From Chryseobacterium sp. G0162 (GTDB taxonomy: Bacteria > Bacteroidota > Bacteroidia > Flavobacteriales > Weeksellaceae), in the NCBI RefSeq assembly GCF_003815715.1, contig NZ_CP033922.1, forward strand, positions 1,811,001 to 1,875,000: 64,000 nt of DNA. Reading direction: 5' to 3'. The notes beneath the pieces are model-generated. The model made no database searches. It had not been told where the DNA came from and saw only the letters and a list, made by a program, of their open reading frames with translations. Positions 1 to 40,717 of this stretch are shown one piece after another; within the stretch, counting starts at the first letter, position 1, and the number at the start of each line of letters is the position of its first letter. A program made the position numbers and the translations under genes.

Positions 1-1548
1 ATAAATTTTAGTAATCGCTTTCAATACATCCGGAGATCCCTGAATAGCTGTTTTCTGTAGGAAGAAATGCAGACCACTTAATCCTCCCATTTCTTCTCCG
101 CCTCCTGCTCTACCAGGTCCGCCGTGCATTAATGTAGGAAGTGGTGAGCCATGACCAGTACTTTCTTTAGCATTGTCTCTGTTCAATACAAAGATTCTAC
201 CATGTTGAGAGGCCATTTTCCATGATGTTTCTGCAATAAAGTTTTCATCGTGGGAAACAATAGATCCAACTAAACTTCCTTTTCCTCTTTTTGCCAAAGC
301 AGCTGCTTCTTCAGCATCTTTATATGGCATTAATGTAGATACTGGCCCGAAAGCTTCTACATCATGAGAGATATTTTTCTCGAAAGGTTTATCATTCAGG
401 AATAACTTAGGACTCATAAATGCTCCGTTTTCATAGCTGGCGTCTACAAGTTCATGTTTTCCGTCATAGACAAGTTCTGTTTCTGATTTTAAAATATTTA
501 CTTTTCTTAAAACTTCTTCATATTGCTGTCTTCCCACCAAAGATCCCATTTTTGTTTCTCTGCTTAATGGGTTTCCGATCTTGGTTTGATCTAAAGCTTT
601 GGATAGAGCGTTCTGAACATCACCAATCAAATGCTCAGGAACAATGATTCTTCTGATCGCTGTACATTTCTGACCTGCTTTTGTGGTCATCTCGTTTCGA
701 ACTTCTTTGACAAATAAATCAAATTCCGGAGTTCCTGGTTTTGCTTCCAATCCAAGGATAGAACAATTCAAAGAATCTGCTTCCATATTGAAACGAACGG
801 CATTTCCTGCAACAGATGGAAGTGATTTCAGTTTTCTTCCCGTAGTAGCTGAACCTGTAAACAATACAGAATCTCCATCCTGAACATAATCAAGGATATT
901 TCCAGGTTCTCCACATACCAATTGTACTGCTCCTTCAGGTAATATTCCACTTTCAATCATATCCTGAAATACGGCATTCGTAAGATAAGATCCGAAGGGT
1001 GATGGCTTAACAATAGATGGTACCCCTGCTAACAATGATGTGGATAATTTTTCCAACATTCCCCAAACAGGAAAGTTATAAGCGTTGATCTGTACAGAAA
1101 CCCCTTCACTTGGTGTTAAAATATGAGTACCTAAAAACGTTCCGTTAGCTGAAATTTTCTGAGTATCACCGTCAACCCAGAATGAAGTGTTAGGCAGCAT
1201 TCTTTTTGCTAATCCTGAATAGGTAAAAAATGTTCCGAAACCTCCTTCAATATCCACCCATGAATCAACGTGAGTAGCTCCCGTTTTATAGGACAATTCG
1301 TAATATTTTTTCTTTCTTTCTAACAGGTAAAGGGCTACTTTTTTTAACATTTCCCCACGATCATAGAACGTCATGGAAGAAAGGTTTTTGTACCCTACAG
1401 TTCTACCGTAATCAAGAGCCTGTTCAAAGTTAAGACCTTCAGTATCGGAAACGGCTACCTGCTCTCCTGTTACAGCGTTGTATAAAGGGATTCCGGTACC
1501 GGCTCCTTCTACCCATTCACCGTATATATAGTTTTTTAGTTTTTCCAT
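1..1548 (-). CDS. paaZ: PaaZ, oxepin-CoA hydrolase / semialdehyde dehydrogenase (3' end outside window)
   Basis: This is the aldehyde dehydrogenase part of the ring-opening enzyme of aerobic phenylacetate degradation, which cleaves oxepin-CoA and oxidises the resulting semialdehyde. The 516 visible codons start at the ATG at 1548 (MEKLKNYIYGEW). The dehydrogenase catalytic pair is present: Glu256 in NMEADSLN and Cys295 in AGQKCTAIRR, the same positions as in E. coli PaaZ. The C-terminal MaoC-type hydratase domain, usual in PaaZ, would lie past the left edge, so its presence cannot be judged. It is the last visible gene of the paa cluster, separated from the upstream esterase by an octamer-repeat hairpin. 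The reading frame stays open to the window edge. Confidence 0.95.
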   Translation of the reverse strand, partial: MEKLKNYIYGEWVEGAGTGIPLYNAVTGEQVAVSDTEGLNFEQALDYGRTVGYKNLSSMTFYDRGEMLKKVALYLLERKKKYYELSYKTGATHVDSWVDIEGGFGTFFTYSGLAKRMLPNTSFWVDGDTQKISANGTFLGTHILTPSEGVSVQINAYNFPVWGMLEKLSTSLLAGVPSIVKPSPFGSYLTNAVFQDMIESGILPEGAVQLVCGEPGNILDYVQDGDSVLFTGSATTGRKLKSLPSVAGNAVRFNMEADSLNCSILGLEAKPGTPEFDLFVKEVRNEMTTKAGQKCTAIRRIIVPEHLIGDVQNALSKALDQTKIGNPLSRETKMGSLVGRQQYEEVLRKVNILKSETELVYDGKHELVDASYENGAFMSPKLFLNDKPFEKNISHDVEAFGPVSTLMPYKDAEEAAALAKRGKGSLVGSIVSHDENFIAETSWKMASQHGRIFVLNRDNAKESTGHGSPLPTLMHGGPGRAGGGEEMGGLSGLHFFLQKTAIQGSPDVLKAITKIY

Positions 1549-1561
1549 ATAGAATTTAATT

Positions 1562-1652
1562 TAACAATGTATCAATCTAATAGTTTACCAATAAATACTT
1601 ACTGTATCCGGCATGAAAAGAATTGTTACATTTTTACATTGGTATATTGTTA
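1562..1652. repeat. Intergenic inverted octamer array, TAACAATG family
   Basis: The left arm (1562-1593) reads as four consecutive 8-mers: TAACAATG, TATCAATC, TAATAGTT, TACCAATA. The right arm (1622-1652), on the opposite strand, reads TAACAATA, TACCAATG, TAAAAATG, TAACAAT. The arms are roughly complementary and separated by 28 bp, so a long imperfect hairpin can form between the esterase gene and paaZ. Confidence 0.75.
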
Positions 1653-1662
1653 CACTTATAGT

Positions 1663-2490
1663 TTATTTTGGCTCCTGATACGGAAACAATTTCACCAATC
1701 CTTCGTATAAACTTCTGTGAAGAATGGTTGCATGATTGTCTGTTTCCATCATTTTATATTCTAATGTCCAGTTTTTCTTTCCTGCTTTTTTCAAAACATC
1801 ATATAGCGTTTCTGCATCTTTTATCATCACAGGATGTTCTCCTTTTCCTACGGAAACATAAACGAATTTTTTAGTATCAGCAGATTTTGAAAGTAATTGA
1901 GGAGCCTGTTTAAGAAGACTTTCATCATCCCACCATAAACTCGGACTGATGATGAAATAGTTGTTGAACATTTCAGGTTTTTTCAATAAGATCTCTGTTG
2001 CTAAAAGCCCTCCTAGAGATTGTCCAAACAAATATTTTTCTGTTGTTTTAAACTGACTTTCAACATAAGGCTTCAATTCTTTTTCAAAAAAGGTGATAAA
2101 TTTATCAGAATGCCCTGTTGTAGGATAATCTTTCTGTAAATCTTTCAAATCCGTGTAAAAAGTAAAATCTCTTTTTCTATCTATATTCGCAATTCCTACC
2201 ACAATGGTTTCCGGCATAGAATACATTTGATTGAAGAACTGCACCAACCCTGAAACGTGGATAAAATCTTCATTCATACTTCCATCTAAAAGATAAATAA
2301 TTGGGTAGGCTTTTGATTTATCAAAGTTTTGAGGAAGATAGATGTTTAATGTTCTTTCTTCATTCAGTGTTTTAGACTTAAAAGTCCTCACTTCTCCTAT
2401 CGTAAGCGGTTTTGTAGTAACAGTCTGTGCTGAAACCGTATAATTAACCGCAAACATCATGCTGCATACAAGAGCAATTTTCTTAATCAT
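1663..2490 (-). CDS. Secreted alpha/beta-hydrolase esterase (esterase D / Fes-like family)
   Basis: A 275-aa exported hydrolase. An N-terminal signal peptide (MIKKIALVCS to about residue 21, cut near VSA-Q) precedes an alpha/beta-hydrolase fold of the putative-esterase type, also found in enterochelin esterases and S-formylglutathione hydrolase. The nucleophile elbow is GQSLGG with Ser158, and a C-terminal His lies in TDNHAT near residue 252. It sits 19 bp downstream of paaY and upstream of paaZ, so it is probably co-transcribed with the paa genes. The sequence gives no direct reason to link it to phenylacetate: it might release aromatic acids from esters, or be a passenger. The substrate is unknown. 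Confidence 0.8.
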   Translation of the reverse strand: MIKKIALVCSMMFAVNYTVSAQTVTTKPLTIGEVRTFKSKTLNEERTLNIYLPQNFDKSKAYPIIYLLDGSMNEDFIHVSGLVQFFNQMYSMPETIVVGIANIDRKRDFTFYTDLKDLQKDYPTTGHSDKFITFFEKELKPYVESQFKTTEKYLFGQSLGGLLATEILLKKPEMFNNYFIISPSLWWDDESLLKQAPQLLSKSADTKKFVYVSVGKGEHPVMIKDAETLYDVLKKAGKKNWTLEYKMMETDNHATILHRSLYEGLVKLFPYQEPK

Positions 2491-2509
2491 ATTTAATTTT
2501 GAATGGTTA

Positions 2510-3103
2510 TTATTTCACATCATCCCAGATACTATAATCAACAATCTTTGTTGGAATTTGCTGAACATATTCTGTAAATGGTTCACAAGGCAGAATCGCT
2601 TCTTTTCCTTCTCTTGCCAATTCCTGGTATAGTTTTGTTCCTTCTGTTTTCCAATGAATCATTTCATCAGAAACATCACGGATTATTTTTGCAGGGCTTC
2701 CTACAATCAGTTTTCTAGGCTCACATCTAAAGTTGGCAGGAACAAACGCTAAAGCACCAACAATACTTTCATCACCAATATAAGCTTTATCCATCACAAC
2801 GGAATTCATACCAATCAAACAATTTTTCCCTATATGTCCGGAGTGAATAATTGCCCCATGTCCAATGTGAGCTGATTCTTCTAAAATGGTTTCTATATTC
2901 GGAAAAACATGAAGCGTACAGTTCTCCTGAACGTTAGCTCCGTCTTTAATCATAATTTTTCCCCAGTCGCCACGAATCACTGCATTCGGACCAATATAGA
3001 CTTCTTCACCAATTTCCACATTCCCGATAATCACTGCCTGTGGATGAATATAGGCAGAAGGTTTTATAATGGGACGGATACCGTGATATGAGTAGATGTT
3101 CAT
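2510..3103 (-). CDS. paaY: PaaY-like gamma-carbonic-anhydrase-fold protein
   Basis: A 197-aa left-handed beta-helix protein with hexapeptide repeats from about residue 20 to 150 (IGNVEIGEEVYIGPNAVIRG and similar). It resembles PaaY, reported to be a thioesterase acting on dead-end CoA products of the phenylacetate pathway. Gamma-carbonic-anhydrase-type metal ligands are visible as His in TLHVF, GHGAIIH and IIHSGHIG. The start was set at 3103 (MNIYSYHG); the frame continues further upstream, but only through the repeat DNA between this gene and paaJ. Its place in the paa cluster supports the name; a general gamma-carbonic anhydrase is the alternative. Confidence 0.85.
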   Translation of the reverse strand: MNIYSYHGIRPIIKPSAYIHPQAVIIGNVEIGEEVYIGPNAVIRGDWGKIMIKDGANVQENCTLHVFPNIETILEESAHIGHGAIIHSGHIGKNCLIGMNSVVMDKAYIGDESIVGALAFVPANFRCEPRKLIVGSPAKIIRDVSDEMIHWKTEGTKLYQELAREGKEAILPCEPFTEYVQQIPTKIVDYSIWDDVK

Positions 3104-3110
3104 ATTTTTT

Positions 3111-3200
3111 AATTTGAGAATTTGAGAATGAGTTAATTTGAAAATTAATAATGCCACTAAACATTTTCAAATTCTCAAATTGTTTCATTTTCAAATTGAT
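3111..3200. repeat. Intergenic inverted octamer array, TTTGAAAA family
   Basis: The left arm (3113-3144) is TTTGAGAA, TTTGAGAA, TGAGTTAA, TTTGAAAA in strict 8-nt phase. The right arm (3164-3200) is the complementary-strand version (TTTTCAAA, TTCTCAAA, TTGTTTCA, TTTTCAAA, then a partial unit). It fills nearly all of the paaY-paaJ gap and abuts the paaJ stop codon. Confidence 0.8.
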
Positions 3201-4406
3201 TTATACTTTTTCAATCACCATTGCATACCCTTGCCCAACACCGATACAAAGGGTACACAATGCATATTTTTTATCCTGCTTCTGAAGTTCTATGGCTGCA
3301 GAACCGATGATTCTCGCTCCGGAAACACCCAGTGGGTGACCGATGGCAATAGCACCTCCATTTGGATTGATCCTTGCGTCATCATCTTGTAAACCTAAAC
3401 TTCTTGTTACCGCTAAAGCTTGCGCTGCAAAAGCTTCATTAAGTTCAATAATGTCCATATCCTCCAGAGACAAATTTAATCTCTTTAATAATTTTTGAGT
3501 AGCTTCTACAGGTCCTATTCCCATAATTCTTGGCTCAACACCTGCTACAGATGATCCTAAAATTTTAGCTTTCGGTTTTAAACCATATTTCTTAACTGCT
3601 TCTTCGCTGGCTAAGATCAGTGCTGCTGCTCCGTCATTCATTCCTGAAGCGTTTCCGGCAGTTACCGTTCCCTCTTTTCTGAAAGCCGGACGAAGTTTTC
3701 CTAATCCTTCCATAGAAGAGGTTGGTTTAATAAACTCATCTTTTTCAAAAACGATCGGATCTCCTTTTCTCTGTGGAATTTCAACTTTTACAATTTCTTC
3801 CGCCAGTCTTCCGCTTTCCTGTGCTTTGGTAGCTTTCTGCTGAGACCAAAGGGCAAATTTATCCTGATCTTCTCTATTGATCTGGTGCATGTCTGCAAGA
3901 TTTTCTGCAGTTTCGCCCATACCATCAACCCCATACATTTCTTTCATTTTCGGATTGATAAATCTCCATCCAAAAGTGGTATCATACATCTGACTGTCTC
4001 TTCCGAAAGCGGCACTTGGTTTAGACATTACATAAGGTGAACGTGTCATATGCTCTACTCCACCCGCAATGTAAATTTCGCCTTCACCAGCTGCAATAGA
4101 ACGGAAAGCATTGGCTACTGCCGACATTCCCGAAGCACAAAGTCTGTTTACGGTCTCTCCTCCAATTTTATAAGGAAGTCCAGCCAATAAAAGTCCCATT
4201 CTGGCTACGTTTCTGTTATCTTCACCAGCCTGATTAGCGCATCCGAAAATTACATCTTCAATTTCCTCTACAGGAACTTCAGGATTTCTTGCAACCACTT
4301 CCCTGATAACAATAGCTGCCAAATCATCGGCTCTTACTTCTGATAATCCTCCCTGTAATTTTGAAATAGGAGTTCTGACATAGTCTATGATGTATACGTT
4401 GTTCAT
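3201..4406 (-). CDS. paaJ: PaaJ/PcaF-type thiolase (3-oxoadipyl-CoA thiolase)
   Basis: A 401-aa thiolase that releases acetyl-CoA and succinyl-CoA from 3-oxoadipyl-CoA, and in the paa pathway also acts on 3-oxo-5,6-dehydrosuberyl-CoA. The catalytic triad is complete: Cys90 in NRLCASGMSA, His357 in GHPLGVSG and Cys387 in CTLCIGVGQG. The start was set at 4406 (MNNVYIIDYVRTP), where thiolase similarity begins; upstream in-frame codons fall in repeat DNA. The length is normal for the family. Octamer-repeat arrays flank it on both sides. Confidence 0.95.
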   Translation of the reverse strand: MNNVYIIDYVRTPISKLQGGLSEVRADDLAAIVIREVVARNPEVPVEEIEDVIFGCANQAGEDNRNVARMGLLLAGLPYKIGGETVNRLCASGMSAVANAFRSIAAGEGEIYIAGGVEHMTRSPYVMSKPSAAFGRDSQMYDTTFGWRFINPKMKEMYGVDGMGETAENLADMHQINREDQDKFALWSQQKATKAQESGRLAEEIVKVEIPQRKGDPIVFEKDEFIKPTSSMEGLGKLRPAFRKEGTVTAGNASGMNDGAAALILASEEAVKKYGLKPKAKILGSSVAGVEPRIMGIGPVEATQKLLKRLNLSLEDMDIIELNEAFAAQALAVTRSLGLQDDDARINPNGGAIAIGHPLGVSGARIIGSAAIELQKQDKKYALCTLCIGVGQGYAMVIEKV

Positions 4407-4412
4407 AATTTT

Positions 4413-4514
4413 AATTTGAAAATGAGTCAATTTGAGAATTTGAAAATGTCTGATAGTAAGATTTAAAGAATACAATAATTTTCAAATTACCTCATCTTCA
4501 AATTTTCAAATTCT
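4413..4514. repeat. Intergenic inverted octamer array, TTTGAAAA family
   Basis: The left arm (4415-4446) reads TTTGAAAA, TGAGTCAA, TTTGAGAA, TTTGAAAA. The right arm (4479-4514) reads TTTTCAAA, TTACCTCA, TCTTCAAA, TTTTCAAA and a partial unit. All are in exact 8-nt register, and the arms are approximate reverse complements around a 32-bp centre. It fills the paaJ-paaI gap up to the paaI stop codon. Confidence 0.8.
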
Positions 4515-4928
4515 TTATAATTCTGTTACTTTTTTCCCGATTTTATATACTGTTCCTACAAACTTAGCAATCAGCTCATTGTTTTGATTAGTGATCTTAA
4601 TATCATAAACTGCTGTTTTTCTGGTATCATTCACCAAAATACTTTCTGCTCTGAAAATATCACCTTCTTTTCCTGCCTTTGTAAAATTGATGATGCAGTT
4701 TAAAGCTACAGCTGCATCTCCTGTATTATTAGAAGAAAATGCCAGTGCAGAATCCGCAAAAGCAAACGTTACTCCTCCATGAACGGTTTTAAGTCCGTTA
4801 ATCATATCTTTTTTGATAGGCATTTCTATCAAGCAATAGTTTTCTTTAACCTCAATCATTTTGATATTCATCCACTGGGAAAAATAATCCTGATTGAACA
4901 TATAATCTGCTAACTGTCTTGGATTCAT
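4515..4928 (-). CDS. paaI: PaaI hotdog-fold acyl-CoA thioesterase
   Basis: A 137-aa PaaI-type thioesterase that hydrolyses (hydroxy)phenylacetyl-CoA, thought to rescue CoA trapped in pathway intermediates. The hotdog active-site region is clear: HGGVTFAFADSALAF, with the HGG motif and the catalytic Asp on the central helix near residue 60. The length is typical. It follows the unknown 104-aa gene by only 5 bp, so the two are almost certainly co-translated from one message. Confidence 0.92.
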   Translation of the reverse strand: MNPRQLADYMFNQDYFSQWMNIKMIEVKENYCLIEMPIKKDMINGLKTVHGGVTFAFADSALAFSSNNTGDAAVALNCIINFTKAGKEGDIFRAESILVNDTRKTAVYDIKITNQNNELIAKFVGTVYKIGKKVTEL

Positions 4929-4933
4929 TTCTA

Positions 4934-5248
4934 CTATTCGTTTATTATTTCTTCATACAATTCATCCGATAATTTATCGTAAACACGCATTGTTTTACCT
5001 AAAATGACCTGTTCATATGAAAGGTGGATATTGGTGTTTTCAGAGGTATTTTCTCCTTCATACATTGCGTTTAAATCAATTCCATTTTCATTAGCTAGTC
5101 TTTGAATTAACGTTCTGTATTTTTCATTAAACTTCCCCAGCAATTCAAGCCTGTCCTGACTATCCATGGAAGATGCTTCCTCGGTTAAATACTGCTTTTC
5201 AATGAGAAGCCTTGTTTCCAATTCAGCTCTGAATTCTTCTATATTCAT
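4934..5248 (-). CDS. Unknown 104-aa protein of the paa cluster
   Basis: I do not recognise this family. It is a soluble, acidic, probably mostly helical protein (MNIEEFRAELETRLLIEKQY at the N terminus, SYEQVILGKTMRVYDKLSDE near the C terminus) with no signal peptide, membrane segment or cysteines. It lies between paaH and paaI, 5 bp before paaI, behind an octamer hairpin. The tight coupling to paaI argues that it is a real gene with a role linked to the pathway, for example an accessory or regulatory subunit, but nothing in the sequence shows an activity. Confidence 0.75.
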   Translation of the reverse strand: MNIEEFRAELETRLLIEKQYLTEEASSMDSQDRLELLGKFNEKYRTLIQRLANENGIDLNAMYEGENTSENTNIHLSYEQVILGKTMRVYDKLSDELYEEIINE

Positions 5249-5254
5249 AATATT

Positions 5255-5337
5255 AATTTGAAAATTAAATAAATTTGAAAATTTGAAAATGAAAACCTGT
5301 TATAATCAATTTTCAAATTGGCACATTCTCAAATTAT
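5255..5337. repeat. Intergenic inverted octamer array, TTTGAAAA family
   Basis: The left arm holds TTTGAAAA units at 5257, 5274 and 5282, with a TTAAATAA unit and one 1-nt slip between the first two. The right arm (5310-5337) reads TTTTCAAA, TTGGCACA, TTCTCAAA, TTAT. It occupies the gap between paaH and the 104-aa gene and reaches the paaH stop codon. Confidence 0.75.
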
Positions 5338-6471
5338 CTAGTTCATTTTACGAAGCAAAGGACTTTGTCTGTACCTTTCTTCCTGATATTCGTTGTAAAG
5401 GTTCTGCAAGGTTTCAGAAATTTTTGAATACCCGATTTCCTGTCCCCAACCTAACAATCCTTTTGGATAATTGACTCCTTTCTGCATCGCCAGTTCAATG
5501 TCTTCATCATTGGCAACGCCTAATCTTTTTGCTTCTACAGCTTCATTGATGAGCATTGAAATGATTCTTAAAAAGATCTGCTGATAAAGGGCATCATCTT
5601 TTTGTGCTTCTTGTTTTACAGCTCCTTCATTATAATCATAAAACCCTTTTCCTGTTTTTCTGCCATGAAGTTTAGCTTCAGACATTCTCTGTTGAAGTAA
5701 AGAGGGCTTGTATTTAGGATCATAGAAATAATCTTTATAAACCGTTGTGGTTACAGCAAAGTTTACATCTACCCCAATAAGATCCATTAATTCAAATGGT
5801 CCCATTTTGAAGTTTCCTAAAGTCTTCATTGCTTCATCTACCTGTTCTGGTGTTGCAATGTTCTCTTCTACAATTCTTAATGCTTCACCATAGTATGGAC
5901 GAGCAATTCTGTTGACAATAAACCCTGGAATATCTTTAGCAATCACAGGCATTTTCCCCCATTCTTTCATGAGGTTGTATATTTTTTCCGCTAAAGTTTT
6001 TTCTGTTAATAAGGATGGAATTACTTCCACTAAAGGCATTAACGGAGCCGGATTGAAAAAGTGTATTCCGATGAAACGCTCCGGTTTCTTTAGTTCTGCA
6101 CCAAGAGAGGTGATAGAAATAGATGATGTATTGGAACCGATAATACAGTCTTCGGAAACATAGGTCTCCAATTCTGTAAAAACTCTGGTTTTGATATCTT
6201 TGTTTTCAATGATCGCTTCGATAACCAAATTGGAATCTTTTAGATCCTGTAAGGCTTCACCTTTTACGATATTGTTCCTGATCTCTGTGGCTTTTTCCTG
6301 AGAAATTTTTCCTTTTTCAGTTAATTTCTGAAGGGTTTTCTCTAAACCTATAAGTGCTTTATCTATTTGTGGAGTATTAACATCGAATAAAACGACCTTA
6401 CATCCTGCTGTTGCAGCTACCTGGGCAATTCCAACACCCATAGTTCCTGCCCCAATAATTCCAATATTCAT
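5338..6471 (-). CDS. paaH: PaaH, 3-hydroxyadipyl-CoA dehydrogenase
   Basis: A 377-aa NAD-dependent 3-hydroxyacyl-CoA dehydrogenase for the beta-oxidation-like part of the pathway (3-hydroxyadipyl-CoA to 3-oxoadipyl-CoA). The N terminus is the NAD fold with GAGTMGVG at residues 7-14. The catalytic His lies in IHFFNPAPLMPLVEV near residue 139, and the C-terminal helical domain contains GRKTGKGFYDYN. It is longer than the roughly 280-aa single-domain enzymes, having a second C-terminal dehydrogenase-type helical segment, but shorter than the 475-aa E. coli PaaH. Genes on both sides belong to the same pathway. Confidence 0.92.
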   Translation of the reverse strand: MNIGIIGAGTMGVGIAQVAATAGCKVVLFDVNTPQIDKALIGLEKTLQKLTEKGKISQEKATEIRNNIVKGEALQDLKDSNLVIEAIIENKDIKTRVFTELETYVSEDCIIGSNTSSISITSLGAELKKPERFIGIHFFNPAPLMPLVEVIPSLLTEKTLAEKIYNLMKEWGKMPVIAKDIPGFIVNRIARPYYGEALRIVEENIATPEQVDEAMKTLGNFKMGPFELMDLIGVDVNFAVTTTVYKDYFYDPKYKPSLLQQRMSEAKLHGRKTGKGFYDYNEGAVKQEAQKDDALYQQIFLRIISMLINEAVEAKRLGVANDEDIELAMQKGVNYPKGLLGWGQEIGYSKISETLQNLYNEYQEERYRQSPLLRKMN

Positions 6472-6480
6472 TTTTATCTG

Positions 6481-6560
6481 TACAATGTATTAATGTAAAA
6501 TGTATTCATGTAAACCAGTTTTAAAATCATTAATACATTTTACATGAATACATTAATACG
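6481..6560. repeat. Intergenic inverted octamer array, TATTAATG family
   Basis: The left arm contains TATTAATG, TAAAATG (7 nt), TATTCATG, TAAA. The right arm (6530-6560), read on the minus strand, gives TATTAATG, TATTCATG, TAAAATG, TATTAATG. It lies between paaG and paaH and shares the TAnnnATG pattern of the TAACAATG family. Confidence 0.75.
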
Positions 6561-6564
6561 AATT

Positions 6565-7365
6565 TTACCTTCCTTTATAATTAGGTTTTCTTTTCTCTAA
6601 GAAGGCATTTACCCCTTCTATGAAGTCTTCTGTTTCTGCTGCTTCCTGTTGCAGATCACCTTCAAGTTCCAACTGCTCCTTTAAAGTATTAGTATAAGAA
6701 TTAGCAAAGGCTTTTTTCGTTAACTTAAGTGCTGCTGTTGGCATGTTTGCCATTCTCTCAAGGATTTCCATTGATTTTGGACCAAATTCTTCTTCAGTGA
6801 AAACCTCAGCGACAAGACCGTGAGTTTTAGATTCTTCAGCAGATAATTTTTTACCGGTAAACGCTAAATAATTAGCCAACTGTCTACCTAAAAGTTTCGG
6901 TAAGAAATAAGTTCCTCCTGTATCAGGAATCAAACCGATATTTGAAAATGCCTGAGCGAAATAAGCCTTGTTGTTAGCCAATACAAAATCACAGATTAAA
7001 GCTAACATTGCACCAGCTCCTACTGCAGGTCCATTTACCAATGCAATAACCGGTTTTTTGCAACGGGTAACCTCCATTACCAATGGATTATAGTAGTCTA
7101 CCACAATTTTTCTGATGATATCCTGATCATGGTGCTCTTTTCCTGTCACGAATGCTTCATCCAGATTCTGACCAGAACAAAATGCTCTTCCTCTTCCGGA
7201 AATGGCAACGCATCTTACCGTTTCGTCTTCACTGCATTCCTTAACAAAATCTCTCAGATCAGCTAAAGCAGGCTTTGTAAGCGCATTCATCGTTTCAGGT
7301 TGATTGAGGTAGGCGATTTTAAGCTTCCCGTCAAAATGCGATTCAATATCGAGTTGTGTATACAT
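6565..7365 (-). CDS. paaG: PaaG, ring-1,2-epoxyphenylacetyl-CoA isomerase (enoyl-CoA hydratase family)
   Basis: A 266-aa crotonase-fold enzyme. In the paa pathway PaaG isomerises the ring epoxide to oxepin-CoA and later shifts double bonds. Visible crotonase features are the oxyanion-hole region SGRGRAFCSGQNLDEA near residues 60-75 and VNGPAVGAGAMLAL near residues 105-118, then FSNIGLIPDTGGT. The Asp in IPDTGG fits PaaG-type isomerases. The start was set at 7365 (MYTQLDIESH); an in-frame ATG 24 bp upstream would add eight residues. Only one crotonase is present here, so a separate PaaF hydratase must lie outside the window or its role be covered by this enzyme. Confidence 0.9.
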   Translation of the reverse strand: MYTQLDIESHFDGKLKIAYLNQPETMNALTKPALADLRDFVKECSEDETVRCVAISGRGRAFCSGQNLDEAFVTGKEHHDQDIIRKIVVDYYNPLVMEVTRCKKPVIALVNGPAVGAGAMLALICDFVLANNKAYFAQAFSNIGLIPDTGGTYFLPKLLGRQLANYLAFTGKKLSAEESKTHGLVAEVFTEEEFGPKSMEILERMANMPTAALKLTKKAFANSYTNTLKEQLELEGDLQQEAAETEDFIEGVNAFLEKRKPNYKGR

Positions 7366-7383
7366 AGTTTTGTATTTTATATT

Positions 7384-7443
7384 TAACAATGCACTAATTT
7401 AACAATATAAATCAATGTAACCGTCTAACAATTTAACAATCTA
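7384..7443. repeat. Intergenic octamer direct array, TAACAATG family
   Basis: A run of degenerate 8-mers in one orientation: TAACAATG, CACTAATT, TAACAATA, a 10-nt variant, TAACCGTC, TAACAATT, TAACAATC. No complementary right arm is visible in the remaining gap before paaD, so this looks like half of one of the inverted elements, or a single-armed form. Confidence 0.7.
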
Positions 7444-7517
7444 GTCTTATCATCGTTATGTTTTGCATAGTCCGTAAAATTTAGAATTAAACTTATACTT
7501 TGACTTATTGTTATCTA

Positions 7518-7982
7518 TTAATGACATTTAAAATAATCAAAAGGTTCCAGACAGTCTAAGCACTGATAAGAAGCCTTACACAAGGTAGACCCGAACCTGC
7601 TGATCTGTTTGGTGTGCTCAGAACCACAACGCGGACATTTTTTCGGTTTCCCGATGTGGTGTTCATCAGCTCCTTTTTCAGGAGGTGTAATTCCGAAAGC
7701 ACGGAGCTTTTCTCTCGCTTCATCTGTCAGCCAATCCGTTGTCCATATCGGAAACATTTTGGTGACTACTTTAGCTTCCCATCCGTTGTCCTTCATGATT
7801 TTCATGATATCTTCTTCGATAGTAAACATTGCCGGGCAGGCAGAATAGGTAGGAGTGATCGTTACTTCACAGGAGTTTTCTCCTGTGATTTGTGCCTCTC
7901 TTACAATTCCCAGCTCTACAATATTAATTACCGGAATTTCCGGATCGGGAACTAGTTCTAATATTTCTAAAGGATTTTTCAA
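7518..7982 (-). CDS. paaD: PaaD, phenylacetyl-CoA epoxidase maturation subunit
   Basis: A 154-aa DUF59/MIP18-type protein needed for assembly of the multicomponent phenylacetyl-CoA epoxidase, probably in metal or Fe-S insertion. The N-terminal DUF59 part (residues 1-90) contains TPTYSACPAM. The C-terminal zinc-ribbon-like part has CPRCG, then cysteines in TLCKASYQCLDC and FKCH. The ATG overlaps the stop of the upstream small membrane protein gene as ATGA, which indicates translational coupling. Confidence 0.93.
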   Translation of the reverse strand: MKNPLEILELVPDPEIPVINIVELGIVREAQITGENSCEVTITPTYSACPAMFTIEEDIMKIMKDNGWEAKVVTKMFPIWTTDWLTDEAREKLRAFGITPPEKGADEHHIGKPKKCPRCGSEHTKQISRFGSTLCKASYQCLDCLEPFDYFKCH

Positions 7983-8224
7983 TCTCTTATTATTTTTCTT
8001 CTAAACACTAATAAAACAACAATTAAAACAAGATCTGCAACAATCAATATTTTATTCTGTCTTATATCCTGACATAAATCTCTTTTGGTTATTTGTGAAA
8101 TACAGTCCCCGGGATTATTGGTTTCATACTTTAAACTAACTTGTGTGTTAATGATTCCAAAGTAAAATATGGGGATTAAAATAACCAAAATGATTATCAA
8201 TATTTTAAAATATTTTTCCTTCAA
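7979..8224 (-). CDS. Small two-helix membrane protein between paaC and paaD
   Basis: This is an 81-aa protein if it starts at the TTG at 8224, 11 nt after the paaC stop (translated MKEKYFKILIIILVILIPIF). The frame is open to 8296, but that extension lies inside paaC. Two hydrophobic helices (about residues 6-24 and 61-76) flank a polar loop with two cysteines (GDCISQ, RDLCQD). The stop overlaps the paaD start as ATGA. I do not recognise the family. The hydrophobic pattern, spacing and overlap favour a real gene; the non-ATG start is the weak point. Confidence 0.55.
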   Translation of the reverse strand: MKEKYFKILIIILVILIPIFYFGIINTQVSLKYETNNPGDCISQITKRDLCQDIRQNKILIVADLVLIVVLLVFRRKIIRD

Positions 8225-8234
8225 ACCACACTTT

Positions 8235-8984
8235 TTACCAAGTACAACCTGGATACGCTCTCTGCATATACTGAAGTTCACAAAGGATAAATCCAAAGTA
8301 TTCTGTATGATATCCGGTTCTTGATTTTGGCTGCATAAACGGATTGGTTGGATATTCTAATCCGAAAGTCTGGAAGTCTTTTTCTGTAATGGCAACAAAC
8401 TCTTTGTACAAGTCATCAACATTAGGAACGATATTCAACACAGCAAGATCATCTTCTCCTTCTGATTTAGCAAACAGACCTTTGGTATATTCCCAGATGT
8501 TTTCGATGGCTTTTTCCAAACGCTGACGGCTTTCTTCTGTTCCCTGCGCAAAAATCTTCATCCAGGATGCCGTATGAGTATAATGATATCTTACTTCTTT
8601 TAATGATTTTTGAGCAATCGCAGAAAGTTCTTCATTTGCAGAATCTGATAATGCCTCATACATCAATTTCTGGTATATCGAGAAAACATATACTTTAAGA
8701 ATCGTCTGTGCATAATCTTCATTAGGAAGCTCTGTCCAGTGTGCATTTAGATACTCGTGTTCATATCTTAAAAATGCAATATCATCCTCACTTTTACCGT
8801 TGTCAATCACTCTTGAAGCATACACATAAAAGTTATTAGCCTGACCAAGTTCATCCAACGCAATGTTTGTTAATGCAATATCTTCCTCCAAATAAGGACC
8901 TTCACCACACCATGCAGATAAACGCTGTCCCATAATGAAACTGTCGTCTGCTAGTTTTAATAAATAATTATATAATGGGTTCAT
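8235..8984 (-). CDS. paaC: PaaC, phenylacetyl-CoA epoxidase structural subunit
   Basis: A 249-aa ferritin-like helical-bundle subunit of the phenylacetyl-CoA 1,2-epoxidase (PaaABCDE). It pairs with the catalytic subunit PaaA and is regarded as structural. Family landmarks are LADDSFIMGQRLSAWCGEGP at the N terminus, DELGQANNFY and LKEVRYHYTHTASWMKIF in the middle, and LQYMQRAYPGCTW at the end. The length is standard. It is separated from paaB by a heptamer-repeat array and followed 10 nt later by the small membrane protein. Confidence 0.95.
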   Translation of the reverse strand: MNPLYNYLLKLADDSFIMGQRLSAWCGEGPYLEEDIALTNIALDELGQANNFYVYASRVIDNGKSEDDIAFLRYEHEYLNAHWTELPNEDYAQTILKVYVFSIYQKLMYEALSDSANEELSAIAQKSLKEVRYHYTHTASWMKIFAQGTEESRQRLEKAIENIWEYTKGLFAKSEGEDDLAVLNIVPNVDDLYKEFVAITEKDFQTFGLEYPTNPFMQPKSRTGYHTEYFGFILCELQYMQRAYPGCTW

Positions 8985-8991
8985 TATTTTA

Positions 8992-9050
8992 GCTTTTGGC
9001 TTTTGGCATCTAGCTTTTGGCGAATTGCCGGTAGCTAACAGCCAATAGCT
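8992..9050. repeat. Intergenic heptamer array, GCTTTTG/GCCAATA family
   Basis: Eight consecutive 7-mers, each starting with GC: GCTTTTG, GCTTTTG, GCATCTA, GCTTTTG, GCGAATT, GCCGGTA, GCTAACA, GCCAATA, followed by GCT. The first half is roughly complementary to the second (agct at both ends, GCCAAT/GGCTTTTG-type pairing). It lies between paaB and paaC. Confidence 0.75.
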
Positions 9051-9053
9051 GTT

Positions 9054-9335
9054 TTACATATTTTTTACGTCGTTTGGAATCTCGTAGAAAGTTGGATGAC
9101 GGTACAGTTTGTCATCAGCAGGATCAAAGAAAGCCTCTTTATCTACTCCTTCTGAAGTCACAATATATTTACTTGGAACTACCCAAACAGAAGTTCCTTC
9201 TTTTCTTCTGGTATAAACGTCTCTTGCATTCTGCAAAGCCATTTCTGCTGTTGGTGCTTGTACAATTCCAACATGTTTGTGAGATAATCCCGGTTTAGTC
9301 TGAATAAACACTTCCCACATATCTAAATTTGCCAT
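9054..9335 (-). CDS. paaB: PaaB, phenylacetyl-CoA epoxidase subunit
   Basis: A 93-aa small subunit of the phenylacetyl-CoA epoxidase, which bridges PaaAC heterodimers in the enterobacterial complex. Typical sequence: DMWEVFIQTKPGLSHKHVG at the N terminus, AEMALQNARDVYTRRKEG in the middle, and DKLYRHPTFYEIPNDVKNM at the C terminus. The length matches the family. Repeat arrays lie on both sides, a heptamer type downstream and an octamer type upstream. Confidence 0.96.
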   Translation of the reverse strand: MANLDMWEVFIQTKPGLSHKHVGIVQAPTAEMALQNARDVYTRRKEGTSVWVVPSKYIVTSEGVDKEAFFDPADDKLYRHPTFYEIPNDVKNM

Positions 9336-9339
9336 AATT

Positions 9340-9458
9340 AATTTGAAAATTTGAAAATTGGTTAATTTGAAAATTGATGAATCGTGTTCATTGAAAATTT
9401 GAGTATAAATAACGTGGTTAAAGTCATTTTCAAATTTTCAAATTAGCACATTTTCAAA
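9340..9458. repeat. Intergenic inverted octamer array, TTTGAAAA family
   Basis: The left arm (9342-9373) reads TTTGAAAA, TTTGAAAA, TTGGTTAA, TTTGAAAA. The right arm (9427-9458) reads TTTTCAAA, TTTTCAAA, TTAGCACA, TTTTCAAA and ends exactly at the base before the paaA stop codon. Both arms are four perfect-length 8-mers, with the odd unit in third place in each. The centre is 53 bp. Confidence 0.85.
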
Positions 9459-10397
9459 TTATATTACTTCTTTTTGTTGTTTCTCTGCAAAAGCAGCTGC
9501 CGCCTCTTTTACCCAAGAATTCTCTCTTTGCGCTTTTCTCTTAGTTTCAATACGCTTCTTATTACAAGGACCGTTTCCTTTTAATATTTCCATAAATTCA
9601 CCCCAAGGAAGCTCTCCAAAATCGTAATGCTGTCTTTCTTCATTCCATTTCAGGTCTTTATCAGGAATCGTTAGTCCTAAGAATTCAGCCTGAGAAACAG
9701 TCACATCAATAAATCTCTGACGAAGACTGTCGTTACTTTCTCTTTTTACCCTGTAGTTCATAGAGATCTTAGAGTTTGGCGAGCTGTCGTCATTAGGTCC
9801 AAACATCATTAGAGCCGGCCACCAGAAACGGTTTAATGAAGCCTGAGCCATTTCCTTCTGTTGTTTGGTACCACGGCAAAGCGCCATTAGAATCTCATAT
9901 CCTTGTCTTTGATGAAAAGACTCCTCTTTACAGATCTTTACCATCGCTCTTGAGTAAGGTCCATAAGAGTTCCCCATCAACATTACCTGGTTCATAATGG
10001 CTGCACCATCTACTAACCAGCCGATAGCACCGATATCTGCCCAGCTTAGCGTAGGATAATTGAAAATACTTGAATATTTTGCTTTTCCTTCCAGCATATC
10101 ATCATAAGTAGCATCTCTGTCTGCTCTGATACTTCCGTCTCCTAAAGTTTCTGTTGCAGAATAAAGGTATAAACCGTGTCCTGCCTCATCCTGAACCTTA
10201 GCCAGAAGTGCCATTTTTCTTCTCAAGGAAGGAGCCCTGGAAATCCAATTGGCTTCCGGTAACATTCCTACAATTTCAGAATGGGCATGCTGTGAAATCT
10301 GACGAACCAATAATTTCCTGTAATCATCAGGCATTACATCTTTTGGCTCTACTTTATTTTCTTCGTGAACGTATTCAACAAATTTTTCTAAGTCCAT
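9459..10397 (-). CDS. paaA: PaaA, phenylacetyl-CoA epoxidase catalytic di-iron subunit
   Basis: The 312-aa catalytic subunit that epoxidises the aromatic ring of phenylacetyl-CoA. Di-iron ligands are visible as Glu41 (HSEIVG), Glu71-x-x-His74 (QDEAGHG) and Glu159-x-x-His162 ([11 protein letters not shown]). The C terminus holds FGELPWGEF and a basic [13 protein letters not shown] segment, both usual in PaaA. It is full length. In transcription order it follows paaE and precedes paaB, whereas the enterobacterial order is paaABCDE; here the reductase gene comes first. Confidence 0.97.
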
Positions 10398-10410
10398 AAT
10401 TTTTTCAATT

Positions 10411-10477
10411 TAGCAATGTATCAGTCTAGCAATGTAACAATGATTGTTACACTGGTAAATTGTTACATGGTTACATT
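10411..10477. repeat. Intergenic inverted octamer array, TAACAATG family
   Basis: The left arm is TAGCAATG, TATCAGTC, TAGCAATG, TAACAATG (10411-10442). The right arm (10443-10477), read on the minus strand, gives TAACCATG, TAACAATT, TACCAGTG, TAACAAT. The arms meet almost without a loop: TGTAACAAT-g-ATTGTTACA is a perfect central palindrome. It lies between paaE and paaA. Confidence 0.85.
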
Positions 10478-10482
10478 AATGT

Positions 10483-11568
10483 TTAAACATCATAATTAAG
10501 CATCACCACATTCGTTGTCGGGTGACATTGACAGGTAAGAACGTAACCTCTGGCTACTTCGTCTTCGGTAAGTGCGTAGTTTTTCTCCATGAAAACTTCT
10601 CCTTCCAAAACTTCCGCTTTACACGTACAACATACTCCTCCTTTGCATGCAAAAGGCACAGGAAGATTGTCTTTCAATGCTTTATCTAAGATACTCTCTT
10701 TTTTGGAATTAAGGTGGAATGAATACTCATCATCATCAATAATTACCGTTACCATACTTTCAATATTGGCAATCGCTTTGAATTCATCACTCATTTCCTC
10801 CGTATTTTCTTCGTCAGGAGCTGTGAAATATTCAAATAAGACCTGGATAGCAGGTACTTTTTTATCTTTCTTTAAATAATCGGAGATGCCTTTAATCATT
10901 TCTGAAGGACCACAAATGAAGTAAGTTGCTTCCTTTACATCAATCTCTGTATATCTTTCAAACAGCTGATCTAATTTCTCAGGAGAAATTCTTCCTTCAA
11001 AAACAGGATCTTCATGTTTTTGACGACTTACTAAATAAATCACTTTAAGTCTTCCATTGAACTGTTCTACCAGTTTTTCTATTTCAGCTTTTCTCAAAAC
11101 ATGATCCATACTTCTGTTACTGTAAAACAGATAAGCATTACTGTTGGGTTCCTGATAAAGACTTTCTTTAATATTGGATAAAACCGGAGTGATCCCACTT
11201 CCTGCCGCTAATCCTATGTATGTTTTTACATTTGTAGGGTGATAAGAAGTATTAAAGCCACCCATTGGAGGCATTACTTCCAGCATTTCATCCATATGAA
11301 GATGCTCATTGAAGTATCCTGATACTTTTCCTCCTTCAAGCAATTTTACCAGAACTTCCAAAGTATTGCTTTTTTCGCTTGGGGCATTGCAGATAGAGTA
11401 AGAACGTCTCTCTTCATTTCCGTTGATTGTCATTCGGAAATTAAGGTACTGCCCTTGTTTGAACCTGAACTTGTCTTTCAGTTCTTCAGGAATCTCCACT
11501 GCAACACTTACAGCGTCTGAAGTATCCTTCTGAACCTTTACAGTTTTAAGTTTATAAAATGAATTCAT
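10483..11568 (-). CDS. paaE: PaaE, NAD(P)H reductase of the phenylacetyl-CoA epoxidase
   Basis: A 361-aa ferredoxin-NADP reductase-like protein with an appended plant-type [2Fe-2S] ferredoxin domain, which feeds electrons to PaaA. The FAD-binding part has RRSYSICN near residue 54. The NAD-binding part has GLAAGSGITPVLS and YFICGPSEM. The cluster cysteines sit in PFACKGGVCCTCKAEV and VLTCQC at the C terminus. Its ATG overlaps the paaK stop by one base (TAATG), so it is translationally coupled to paaK. Confidence 0.96.
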   Translation of the reverse strand: MNSFYKLKTVKVQKDTSDAVSVAVEIPEELKDKFRFKQGQYLNFRMTINGNEERRSYSICNAPSEKSNTLEVLVKLLEGGKVSGYFNEHLHMDEMLEVMPPMGGFNTSYHPTNVKTYIGLAAGSGITPVLSNIKESLYQEPNSNAYLFYSNRSMDHVLRKAEIEKLVEQFNGRLKVIYLVSRQKHEDPVFEGRISPEKLDQLFERYTEIDVKEATYFICGPSEMIKGISDYLKKDKKVPAIQVLFEYFTAPDEENTEEMSDEFKAIANIESMVTVIIDDDEYSFHLNSKKESILDKALKDNLPVPFACKGGVCCTCKAEVLEGEVFMEKNYALTEDEVARGYVLTCQCHPTTNVVMLNYDV

Positions 11569-12884
11569 TATTTTTTTAGTATTCTATTAATTTTTCCACC
11601 TTCGCACTTCGGCAAACTGTCCTGAGCATGAACTTTCACTTTTGTAGTGATGCCTACTCTCTTTTTGATTTCGTTTTCAATATTTCTTCCGAAGCTTCCG
11701 ACAAAATTAAAATAATCATCGGTATTGGCTTGTATTTTTTGTGTATTTACCAGTTCATCATCAATTTCAACATCAATATCCAAAGCAACACACATATGTT
11801 CTTTTTCAATGGGAGTTAAGTAATAGTTGGGAACCACTCCTTTTACGTGGGAAAATGCCTCTTCAATCTGACTTGGATATACATTTACTCCTCTTACAAT
11901 CAGCATATCATCTGCTCTGCCAACAATCGGTTTCATTTTCACCATAGTTCTTTTGGCATTTTCATCGTAATAGAGACTTGTAATATCATTCGTCCAATAA
12001 CGCAGAAGCGGCATCGCTTTTTTTGTTAAGGTTGTTATAACCAATACTCCCTCTTCTCCGAACGGGACAGGCTGTTTAGTAACAGGGTCCAGAATTTCAG
12101 GATAAAAATGGTCTTCCCAGATATAAGCTCCTCCTTTCTCTTCAAAATCTTCCATAGAAACTCCAGGACCAATGATTTCGCTCAAACCATAAATATTGGT
12201 GGCATGAACGCCTAATCTTTCTTCAATGTGGCCTCTGATAATCTCTGTCCACGGTTCTGATCCCAATACAGCATACTTAAGACTGATTTCATCAGCTGAA
12301 ATTCCTCTTTTAGCAAACTCATCCGCAATGGTAAGAGCATAGGATGGTGAACAGCAGATCACTTCCGGCTTAAAATCTATGATTAGATCTACCTGTCTGG
12401 CTGTCATTCCTCCTGAAATTGGAAGAACGCTCATTCCTAACATTTCTGCACCGTAATGAAGCCCTAAACCTCCGGTAAAAATCCCATAACCATACGCATT
12501 ATGTAACTGCATTCCCGGTCTTGCTCCTGCGGCATTTAATGACCTAGCTACCACTTCACTGAAAAGTTCCACATCTTCTTTAGTATATCCTACCACTGTA
12601 GGTTTTCCTGTAGTTCCGCTTGAACAGTGAATTCTCTGAAGTTCAGTTTTAGGAACCGTAAATAATCCGAATGGGTAGTTGTCTCTTAAATCCTGTTTGT
12701 AAGTAATTGGAAGTTTCGTGATATCTTCAATTGACCTTATATCCTGTGGAGATATCTGCAATTCATCAAACTTTCTTCTATAAAATTCCGATTTCTCGTT
12801 CAGATAACCCATGAGATTTACTAAGCGGTCGGATTGAAGCTGTCTCAACTGACCCAGCTCCAGATATTCAACTGAAAAATCCAT
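11568..12884 (-). CDS. paaK: PaaK, phenylacetate-CoA ligase
   Basis: A 438-aa AMP-forming ligase that activates phenylacetate to phenylacetyl-CoA, the first pathway step. The ATP-binding signature SSGTTGKP is at residues 88-95, followed by AYGYGIF, IYGLSEIIGPG and VGRADDMLIVRG, all typical of PaaK. The start was set at 12884 (MDFSVEYLE). An in-frame ATG at 12899 would put the start inside the operator-like palindrome and very close to the promoter, so it is less likely. It is the first gene of the catabolic operon. Confidence 0.95.
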   Translation of the reverse strand: MDFSVEYLELGQLRQLQSDRLVNLMGYLNEKSEFYRRKFDELQISPQDIRSIEDITKLPITYKQDLRDNYPFGLFTVPKTELQRIHCSSGTTGKPTVVGYTKEDVELFSEVVARSLNAAGARPGMQLHNAYGYGIFTGGLGLHYGAEMLGMSVLPISGGMTARQVDLIIDFKPEVICCSPSYALTIADEFAKRGISADEISLKYAVLGSEPWTEIIRGHIEERLGVHATNIYGLSEIIGPGVSMEDFEEKGGAYIWEDHFYPEILDPVTKQPVPFGEEGVLVITTLTKKAMPLLRYWTNDITSLYYDENAKRTMVKMKPIVGRADDMLIVRGVNVYPSQIEEAFSHVKGVVPNYYLTPIEKEHMCVALDIDVEIDDELVNTQKIQANTDDYFNFVGSFGRNIENEIKKRVGITTKVKVHAQDSLPKCEGGKINRILKK

Positions 12885-40635: not shown

Positions 40636-40638
40636 GTT

Positions 40639-40691
40639 TTGGCTAAAGCCAATGGAATTTTTGAAATAAAAAAGCGGGCTAAAGCCCGCTT
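40639..40691. repeat. Paired GGCTAAAGCC hairpins between convergent genes
   Basis: Two perfect hairpins with the same core and AA loop: TTGGCT-AA-AGCCAA (40639-40652) and AAGCGGGCT-AA-AGCCCGCTT (40672-40691). They are 19 bp apart, between the GH92 and dihydroorotase genes. The shared GGCTAAAGCC core suggests a REP-like dispersed element that may also end transcription from both sides. Confidence 0.65.
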
Positions 40692-40717
40692 CTATTGAAT
40701 TGTTATAATAACTTTTA

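Follow-up and report, generated by a model that had tools for sequence, protein, structure and literature searches.

The window analysed here is a stretch of 64,000 nucleotides from the 5.28-Mb single-contig genome of Chryseobacterium sp. G0162 (NZ_CP033922.1, positions 1,811,001 to 1,875,000), and the features in question are short tandem arrays which lie between the genes of its paa operon for phenylacetate degradation. NCBIfam matches back the gene identities, most clearly those of PaaA, PaaB, PaaC, PaaD and the thiolase. From paaZ to paaE the operon has twelve junctions, ten of which exceed 20 bp, and nine of these contain an array of units of 7 or 8 nucleotides. A preliminary description of this DNA had placed such an array in every gap longer than 20 bp; the exception is the paaD-paaC gap (7983-8234, 252 bp), which has no 7- or 8-nt array (best lag 12) and is mostly occupied by a small open reading frame (ORF). 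This ORF (7979-8296, reverse strand) has a TTG start, encodes 105 aa with hydrophobic stretches, and overlaps both paaC and paaD.

The spacers are all on the reverse strand, and they differ by the word that is repeated. Octamers of the TAACAATG type occur in the paaE-paaA spacer (10398..10482, inverted arms, lag-8 score 18, above threshold), in the est-paaZ spacer (1549..1662, degenerate inverted arms, lag-8 score 21, no folding excess with z -0.16) and in the paaD-paaG spacer (7366..7517), where they are essentially one-sided, in the 3' part, with a lag-8 score of 15 which is at threshold and no folding excess. Octamers of the AATTTGAA type form inverted arms in the paaA-paaB spacer (9336..9458, lag-8 score 31), whose array overlaps the stop codon of paaA, in the paaH-orfX spacer (5249..5337, score 21) and in the paaI-paaF spacer (4407..4514, score 17). 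The paaF-paaY spacer (3104..3200) has AATTTGAA/AATTTGAG octamers in inverted arms (score 22, fold z -4.2) and the paaG-paaH spacer (6472..6564) has TGTATTA/ATGTAAAA octamers, also in inverted arms (score 15, at threshold; p 0.02; fold z -4.3). The paaB-paaC spacer (8985..9053) is built of GCTTTTG-type heptamers in inverted arms (lag-7 score 20).

The octamer phase proposed for eight of the gaps holds: their single-segment lag-8 self-match beats that of shuffled gaps (p<=0.02, 200 shuffles), although in this test the gene caller had fused two gaps with adjoining sequence (884-1662 and 7366-7613; p 0.0 for the latter, which contains the paaD-paaG spacer), and the ninth gap (8985-9053) is 7-periodic. 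With a stricter, two-segment score, seven of the nine spacers are above the 99% shuffle threshold, while 6472-6564 and 7366-7517 are exactly at it. The arms had been described as inverted copies of each other, which is what is seen by eye in eight of the nine spacers, 7366-7517 being the one-sided case. Rfam 15 covariance models run over positions 1-12000 of the window gave three matches at E<=1, none of which reaches its gathering score.

The arrays are not confined to this operon. One hundred 20-kb stretches, sampled systematically and trimmed of any overlap with the window, yielded 889 gaps, with 26 lag-7 arrays where 8.6 are expected and 20 lag-8 arrays where 7.2 are expected; no excess over expectation was found in these gaps at lags 4, 5, 6, 9, 10 and 12. 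Lag-11 arrays are likewise raised in this genome (16 versus 6.7 expected). Arrays occur in 21 of the 329 co-directional gaps of 60-150 nt and in 5 of 153 convergent or divergent gaps. The paa spacers are enriched relative to the former (7/9 versus 21/329, Fisher p=4e-7), in a comparison made post hoc, once the cluster had been noticed. The link with paa that had been suggested is therefore one of density and not of exclusivity: the architecture occurs throughout the genome, with a concentration in paa. A score that combined the array with the inverted repeat was dropped for these counts, its control lags giving nearly as many hits (68 versus 83), and was replaced by a periodicity-only score because terminator-like palindromes swamped it. 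The rest of the window had been thought empty, apart from a hairpin pair at 40639. Indeed, none of its 14 co-directional gaps contains an array, and the hairpin looks like an ordinary terminator between convergent genes. At 40636-40717, this GC-rich terminator-like hairpin adjoins a GGCTAAAGCC palindrome, which recurs in other sampled gaps (L029, L085).

Plain replication slippage, by which arrays would arise as neutral by-products when strands slip and are copied from a hairpin template in AT-rich gaps, accounts for degenerate tandem repeats in gaps and for their variable unit numbers. It does not explain why, over lags 4 to 12, an excess is seen at 7 and 8 and otherwise only at lag 11.

The operon was compared in 40 of 145 PaaA-bearing relatives, mostly those with the most similar PaaA. 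In most gaps of these relatives, all of the space between the stop codon and the next start codon is taken up by a hairpin cassette. There are several unrelated kinds of cassette, and the one at a given gap is swapped between species. At paaE-paaA, an automatic word classifier assigned the 41 loci (window included) to TAACAATG in 20 cases, AATTTGAA in 15 and TGTATTA in 6. The other paa gaps are likewise mixed, if less cleanly: paaH-orfX could not be classified in 13 of 41 loci, and the word classification of paaI-paaF leaves out 15 of 41 gaps which are longer than 700 nt. On a tree of 39 species built from flanking genes, at least 10-20 state changes are needed at each of seven gaps, separate insertions being fewer than state changes. 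Only two of the 41 loci have a bare paaA-paaB junction (14 and 22 nt), with apparent remnant arm sequence.

Some gaps of the relatives contain further sequences. In paaA-paaB and paaH-orfX of L117, L120, L126 and others, a REP-like palindrome (CATGCTGAGC..GAAGCATC) lies inside the loop of TAACAATG hairpins; the same palindrome is found in a TAACAATG hairpin loop of the G0162 genome (L050:5200-5321), as if one element were nested in another. Other inserts, of about 255-280 and 620 nt, carry small ORFs other than that of the protein described below and are found in paaH-orfX (L129, L139, L140, L143, L152) and in paaA-paaB (L136, L147).

Within an allele group the stems are well kept: consensus stems are 95-99% paired in 12 of 13 groups, and no consensus structure was found for the thirteenth. 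This paired state, the presence of some stem in nearly every species at each gap, with paaA-paaB bare in so few loci, and the survival of the architecture through the swaps are what is expected if the hairpins are maintained by the host, selection keeping an insulating or mRNA-stabilizing stem, slippage supplying the units and the protein genes found in some of them being passengers. However, 308 of the 329 comparable gaps have no array.

The nature of these genes is apparent at two gaps. The paaG-paaH gap measures 348-430 nt and has AATTTGAA arms in 11 of 41 loci (the 354-nt gap of L152 is left out of this count, since it starts inside paaG by alignment), and an ORF is found in the loop of such elements. 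Similarly, in 7 of 39 loci the paaI-paaF gap measures 455-492 nt and has TAACAATG arms with an ORF. Together the two gaps provide 15 ORFs of more than 270 nt, the others being shorter or interrupted. The protein of the paaG-paaH element of L119 belongs to PF05635, the 23S-rRNA-intervening-sequence protein (IVP, or S23p), with 82.5 bits for a cut-off of 33.8, and the four proteins that were scanned all score 59-129 bits against this profile. Among rRNA intervening sequences (IVS), some lack an S23p/IVP ORF. The sole match of one scanned IVP among PDB sequences is 2gsc (one entry, 5 chains), and PADLOC gave no hit for two IVPs. None of the nine copies of the window, which all lie between protein-coding paa genes, contains an IVP ORF. 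In L148 the TAACAATG arms enclose only part of an IVP ORF of the paaI-paaF type, which fits a decay towards the ORF-less form.

The IVP is held to be homologous to Avd in the part of PMC10053308 that deals with the two proteins, and one of the four IVPs has a sub-threshold hit with the bAvd profile (28.6 bits for a cut-off of 40; no match for the other three). The element could thus be a retroelement of the diversity-generating type, with the IVP as an Avd relative and the hairpin copied in trans by a reverse transcriptase. Yet the presence of IVP genes does not require a reverse transcriptase of the family searched for, PF00078: the 27 of 59 genomes of the genus which have no PF00078 match average 8.1 IVP genes, compared to 7.4 in the 32 that have one (p=0.24). 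We consider this explanation highly improbable, and a PF00078 reverse transcriptase was discarded as the mover.

When the search starts from the protein instead of the operon, the same architecture appears. PF05635 is found in 58 of the 59 genomes of the genus (457 matches) and in 48 of 60 of the class. In the G0162 genome, all eight PF05635 genes lie between arms by eye, seven clearly and L160 weakly. A larger set was made of the best-scoring PF05635 matches and ten loci from cyanobacterial plasmids, 74 of 77 being scorable. In these flanks, from Bacteroidota and cyanobacteria, the best lag is 7 in 56 cases, 14 in 11, 8 in 5 and another value in 2. The association between IVP genes and arms extends over two phyla: the best lag is 7, 14 or 8 in 72 of the 74 IVP flanks, versus 245 of 704 control genes, taken from the G0162 genome. 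The median inverted-repeat score between upstream and downstream flanks is 27.5 for the IVP genes, 16 for the control genes and 15 for mismatched IVP flanks, and the median arm length is 4.86 units on either side. The words of the left arms are distinct in 49 of 51 cases while the period stays at 7 or 8, which bears out the earlier proposal that the architecture, rather than the sequence, is conserved. C is scarce in the left arm (6.7%) and G in the right arm (7.5%); the TAACAATG family is opposite in this respect (by eye).

The gaps that host IVP genes, as recognised by eye, include groES-groEL, carA-carB, fadJ-fadA and sufB-sufC. In a Nostoc plasmid an IVP gene is flanked by ribonucleotide reductase genes and has the opposite orientation. 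According to the record annotation, IVP genes are located between cas6 and cas4 of CRISPR operons in plasmids of Pseudanabaena and Anabaena (L226, L230). Strictly sense insertion was considered and rejected, a crude caller giving, for 158 elements (a count which includes orthologous copies, and in which L230 is miscalled, being all-sense by annotation), both neighbours in sense in 135, one side undetermined in 12 and an antisense neighbour in 11. Periods that are no multiple of 3 might place stops in all frames, but this found no support either, a stop triplet being present in 33 of 51 words for 29.7 expected (p 0.14).

The arms are coupled with the lineage of the protein. On a tree of 70 non-redundant IVPs, which has few columns and many unresolved forks, the period changes 5 times, compared to 9.4-9.5 times with shuffled labels (0 of 500 as low). 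An IVP query retrieves named relatives, many of them from Chryseobacterium. In one octamer IVP subfamily, for which 80 named loci of several genera were scored, the best lag is 8 in 74; these loci are not independent, because they are mostly in three host gaps, namely paaI-paaF, carA-carB and a pair of CoA-transferase subunits (names given by recognition of the proteins, with no search). In this subfamily the word itself goes with the protein, two or more TAACAATG-type words being found in 68 of the 80 loci versus 0 of 54 heptamer IVPs. Since the word is shared, the inverted-repeat score hardly discriminates in the 80 loci (median 35 versus 29 mismatched). Near-identical IVPs (85-90%) with similar arms are present at the unrelated loci paaI-paaF and carA-carB. 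Across 41 host contexts, the median arm similarity is 75.5 for IVP pairs at least 70% identical (6 pairs, 4 of them above the 95% background level of 47), 41 for pairs 55-70% identical (29 pairs) and 31 for less similar ones (634 pairs). As arm similarity falls with IVP identity, the arms appear to travel with the protein and then to diverge quickly.

These results bear on the two explanations introduced above. Slippage is compatible with units that are more alike within an element than between elements, as the distinct words of the left arms show, but it does not account for arrays that are tied to one protein family nor for words that recur at unrelated loci; as a full explanation it is very unlikely. 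Maintenance by the host, which seems unlikely, leaves unexplained why nearly all IVP flanks are 7/8-periodic compared to one third of the controls, why the period follows the IVP lineage, and why the same word moves with the same IVP to another operon.

The ORF-less cassettes of paa have counterparts that carry the protein. Thirteen of them were chosen to span the word families, leaving out the weakest spacers of the window (1549-1662 and 7366-7517), and the best match of 12 of the 13 to an IVP-bearing element scores 63-149, versus medians of about 25-33. The best match of the paaE-paaA spacer is the paaI-paaF element of L137 (90 versus a median of 28), that of the paaB-paaC spacer is L189 (63 versus 25), and the paaG-paaH spacer resembles L159, an IVP element of the same genome (77 versus 31). 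The corresponding values are 131 versus 31 for paaA-paaB, 94 versus 31 for paaH-orfX, 92 versus 32 for paaI-paaF and 149 versus 33.5 for paaF-paaY.

We therefore consider it probable that the paa spacers are short copies, non-autonomous and ORF-less, of a mobile hairpin element which is related to the rRNA IVS but lies between cistrons. The preliminary description had hesitated between mRNA hairpins that tune expression, a mobile mini-element and a product of slippage; the mini-element is the best supported of the three, given the cassette swaps between species at the same gap, the IVP-carrying counterparts of the cassettes and the occurrence of one unit of IVP and arms at unrelated loci. The full element has a single small ORF, that of the IVP/S23p protein (PF05635), a four-helix bundle, flanked by two inverted arms with roughly five tandem units of 7 or 8 nt apiece. 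Copies would settle between co-transcribed genes, and their distribution suggests that they move. The stem would be transcribed and then probably be cut by RNase III, or act as an RNA insulator, like the IVS stems in 23S rRNA, so that the host mRNA would be split or insulated at points where interruption does no damage. RNase III would be expected to recognise an imperfect intercistronic stem of 20-30 bp, and a cut in the gaps between cistrons, as in the tolerated helices of 23S rRNA, would have little cost. An effect of the spacers on the mRNA is plausible. The association of the protein with the arms suggests that the IVP acts on them.

Several points weigh against this interpretation. Neither an insertion event nor a duplication of the target was observed. 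Because different species often have, by eye, almost the same sequence when their alleles at a gap are of one type, much of the swapping may be recombination of orthologous DNA, and part of it is the exchange of orthologous alleles instead of new insertion. RNA folding, which had been put forward as a check, does not discriminate: four of the nine paa spacers have a fold z below -3, but so do 29% of 150 control gaps. Pair changes on both sides of the stems are few (0-3 per allele group) and not clearly above slid controls. One of the thirteen cassettes, of the AGATAAT type, has a weaker IVP-bearing match (54). By record annotation, 3 of the 10 IVP loci from cyanobacterial plasmids are antisense to the host genes, and the mRNA-splitting model is not applicable to them as stated. 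Finally, the word and score thresholds were set after the pattern had been seen, and the flanks of IVP genes from many genomes were compared with control genes from one only.

The closest known system is the rRNA IVS of Coxiella. The passages of PMC4990558 devoted to it describe a 28-bp terminal stem, excision by RNase III, and tandem GACAGAT heptamers in variable number upstream of a decaying S23p ORF; they present Xanthomonas S23p as a toroidal homopentamer and 2gsc as a homopentamer, and cite the hypothesis that rRNA IVSs are mobile. The elements described here share with the IVS so depicted the inverted-repeat stem, the tandem repeats, a sporadic distribution and, in those copies that carry one, an S23p/IVP ORF that lies in the loop and is prone to decay; they differ from it by their location between protein-coding genes, by the many words per genome and by the lack of an ORF in most paa copies. 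They have the stem and the tandem heptamers beside the ORF, the period of 7 or 14 being the best in 67 of the 74 IVP flanks and that of 8 in 5. Since they do not lie in 16S or 23S rRNA genes, the location that defines a classical IVS, they are called IVS-like and not IVS.

REP elements, which are short palindromes scattered over intergenic regions, are associated with a small protein family, the RAYT transposase, and the STRR repeats of cyanobacteria are tandem heptamers. The present elements resemble the former as dispersed intergenic palindromes with a protein family and the latter by their heptamers, but each of them has a word of its own, repeated in the arrays of 7-8-nt units that make up its arms, and it is the IVP to which they are linked (RAYT genes were not searched for). 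The TAACTGA heptamer arrays of Beggiatoaceae, cyanobacteria and Bacteroidetes are intergenic tandem repeats that precede start codons, with a similar unit length and a patchy distribution across the same phyla; in the passages of PMC4679880 that describe them, they are direct repeats with no link to an IVP. The TAACTGA word is found in inverted arms at one IVP locus, L223, the published arrays being known here by description only. In the P6b stem of the Nostoc trnL intron, Class I or Class II heptamers, which are alternative 7-nt motifs, replace the whole stem repeatedly between lineages while the fold is kept (PMC4476775). This stem, compared by description, lies in a group I intron of a tRNA gene, and the passages concerned mention no IVP ORF (PMC4476775). 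A search of the open-licence literature found no paper that connects operon-borne PF05635 genes with arms of 7-8-nt units.

With five units to an arm and five subunits to a ring, one may speculate that each IVP subunit reads one arm unit. A broader proposal, tentative and on balance doubtful, is that IVS-like elements form a large and for the most part unrecognised class of mobile RNA hairpins in operons, of which the rRNA IVSs, the heptamer arrays of cyanobacteria and Beggiatoaceae and the Nostoc trnL stem would be special cases. Each subunit of the IVP homopentamer would then read one 7- or 8-nt unit of an arm, much as TRAP rings do, and the pentamer would hold both arms and direct their copying, which would make the word uniform inside an element and mobilise ORF-less copies in trans.

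For the S23p/IVP family, which is an orphan, the arms provide a concrete candidate for a nucleic-acid partner, and its role becomes directly testable because the candidate repeat of each protein can be read from its own flanks. The elements also suggest a possible source of the rRNA intervening sequences and one candidate origin for the 7-8-nt repeats that were described independently of each other in Bacteroidota, cyanobacteria and Beggiatoaceae. One little-understood, ring-shaped protein may thus connect several families of short repeats in bacteria that have been puzzling.

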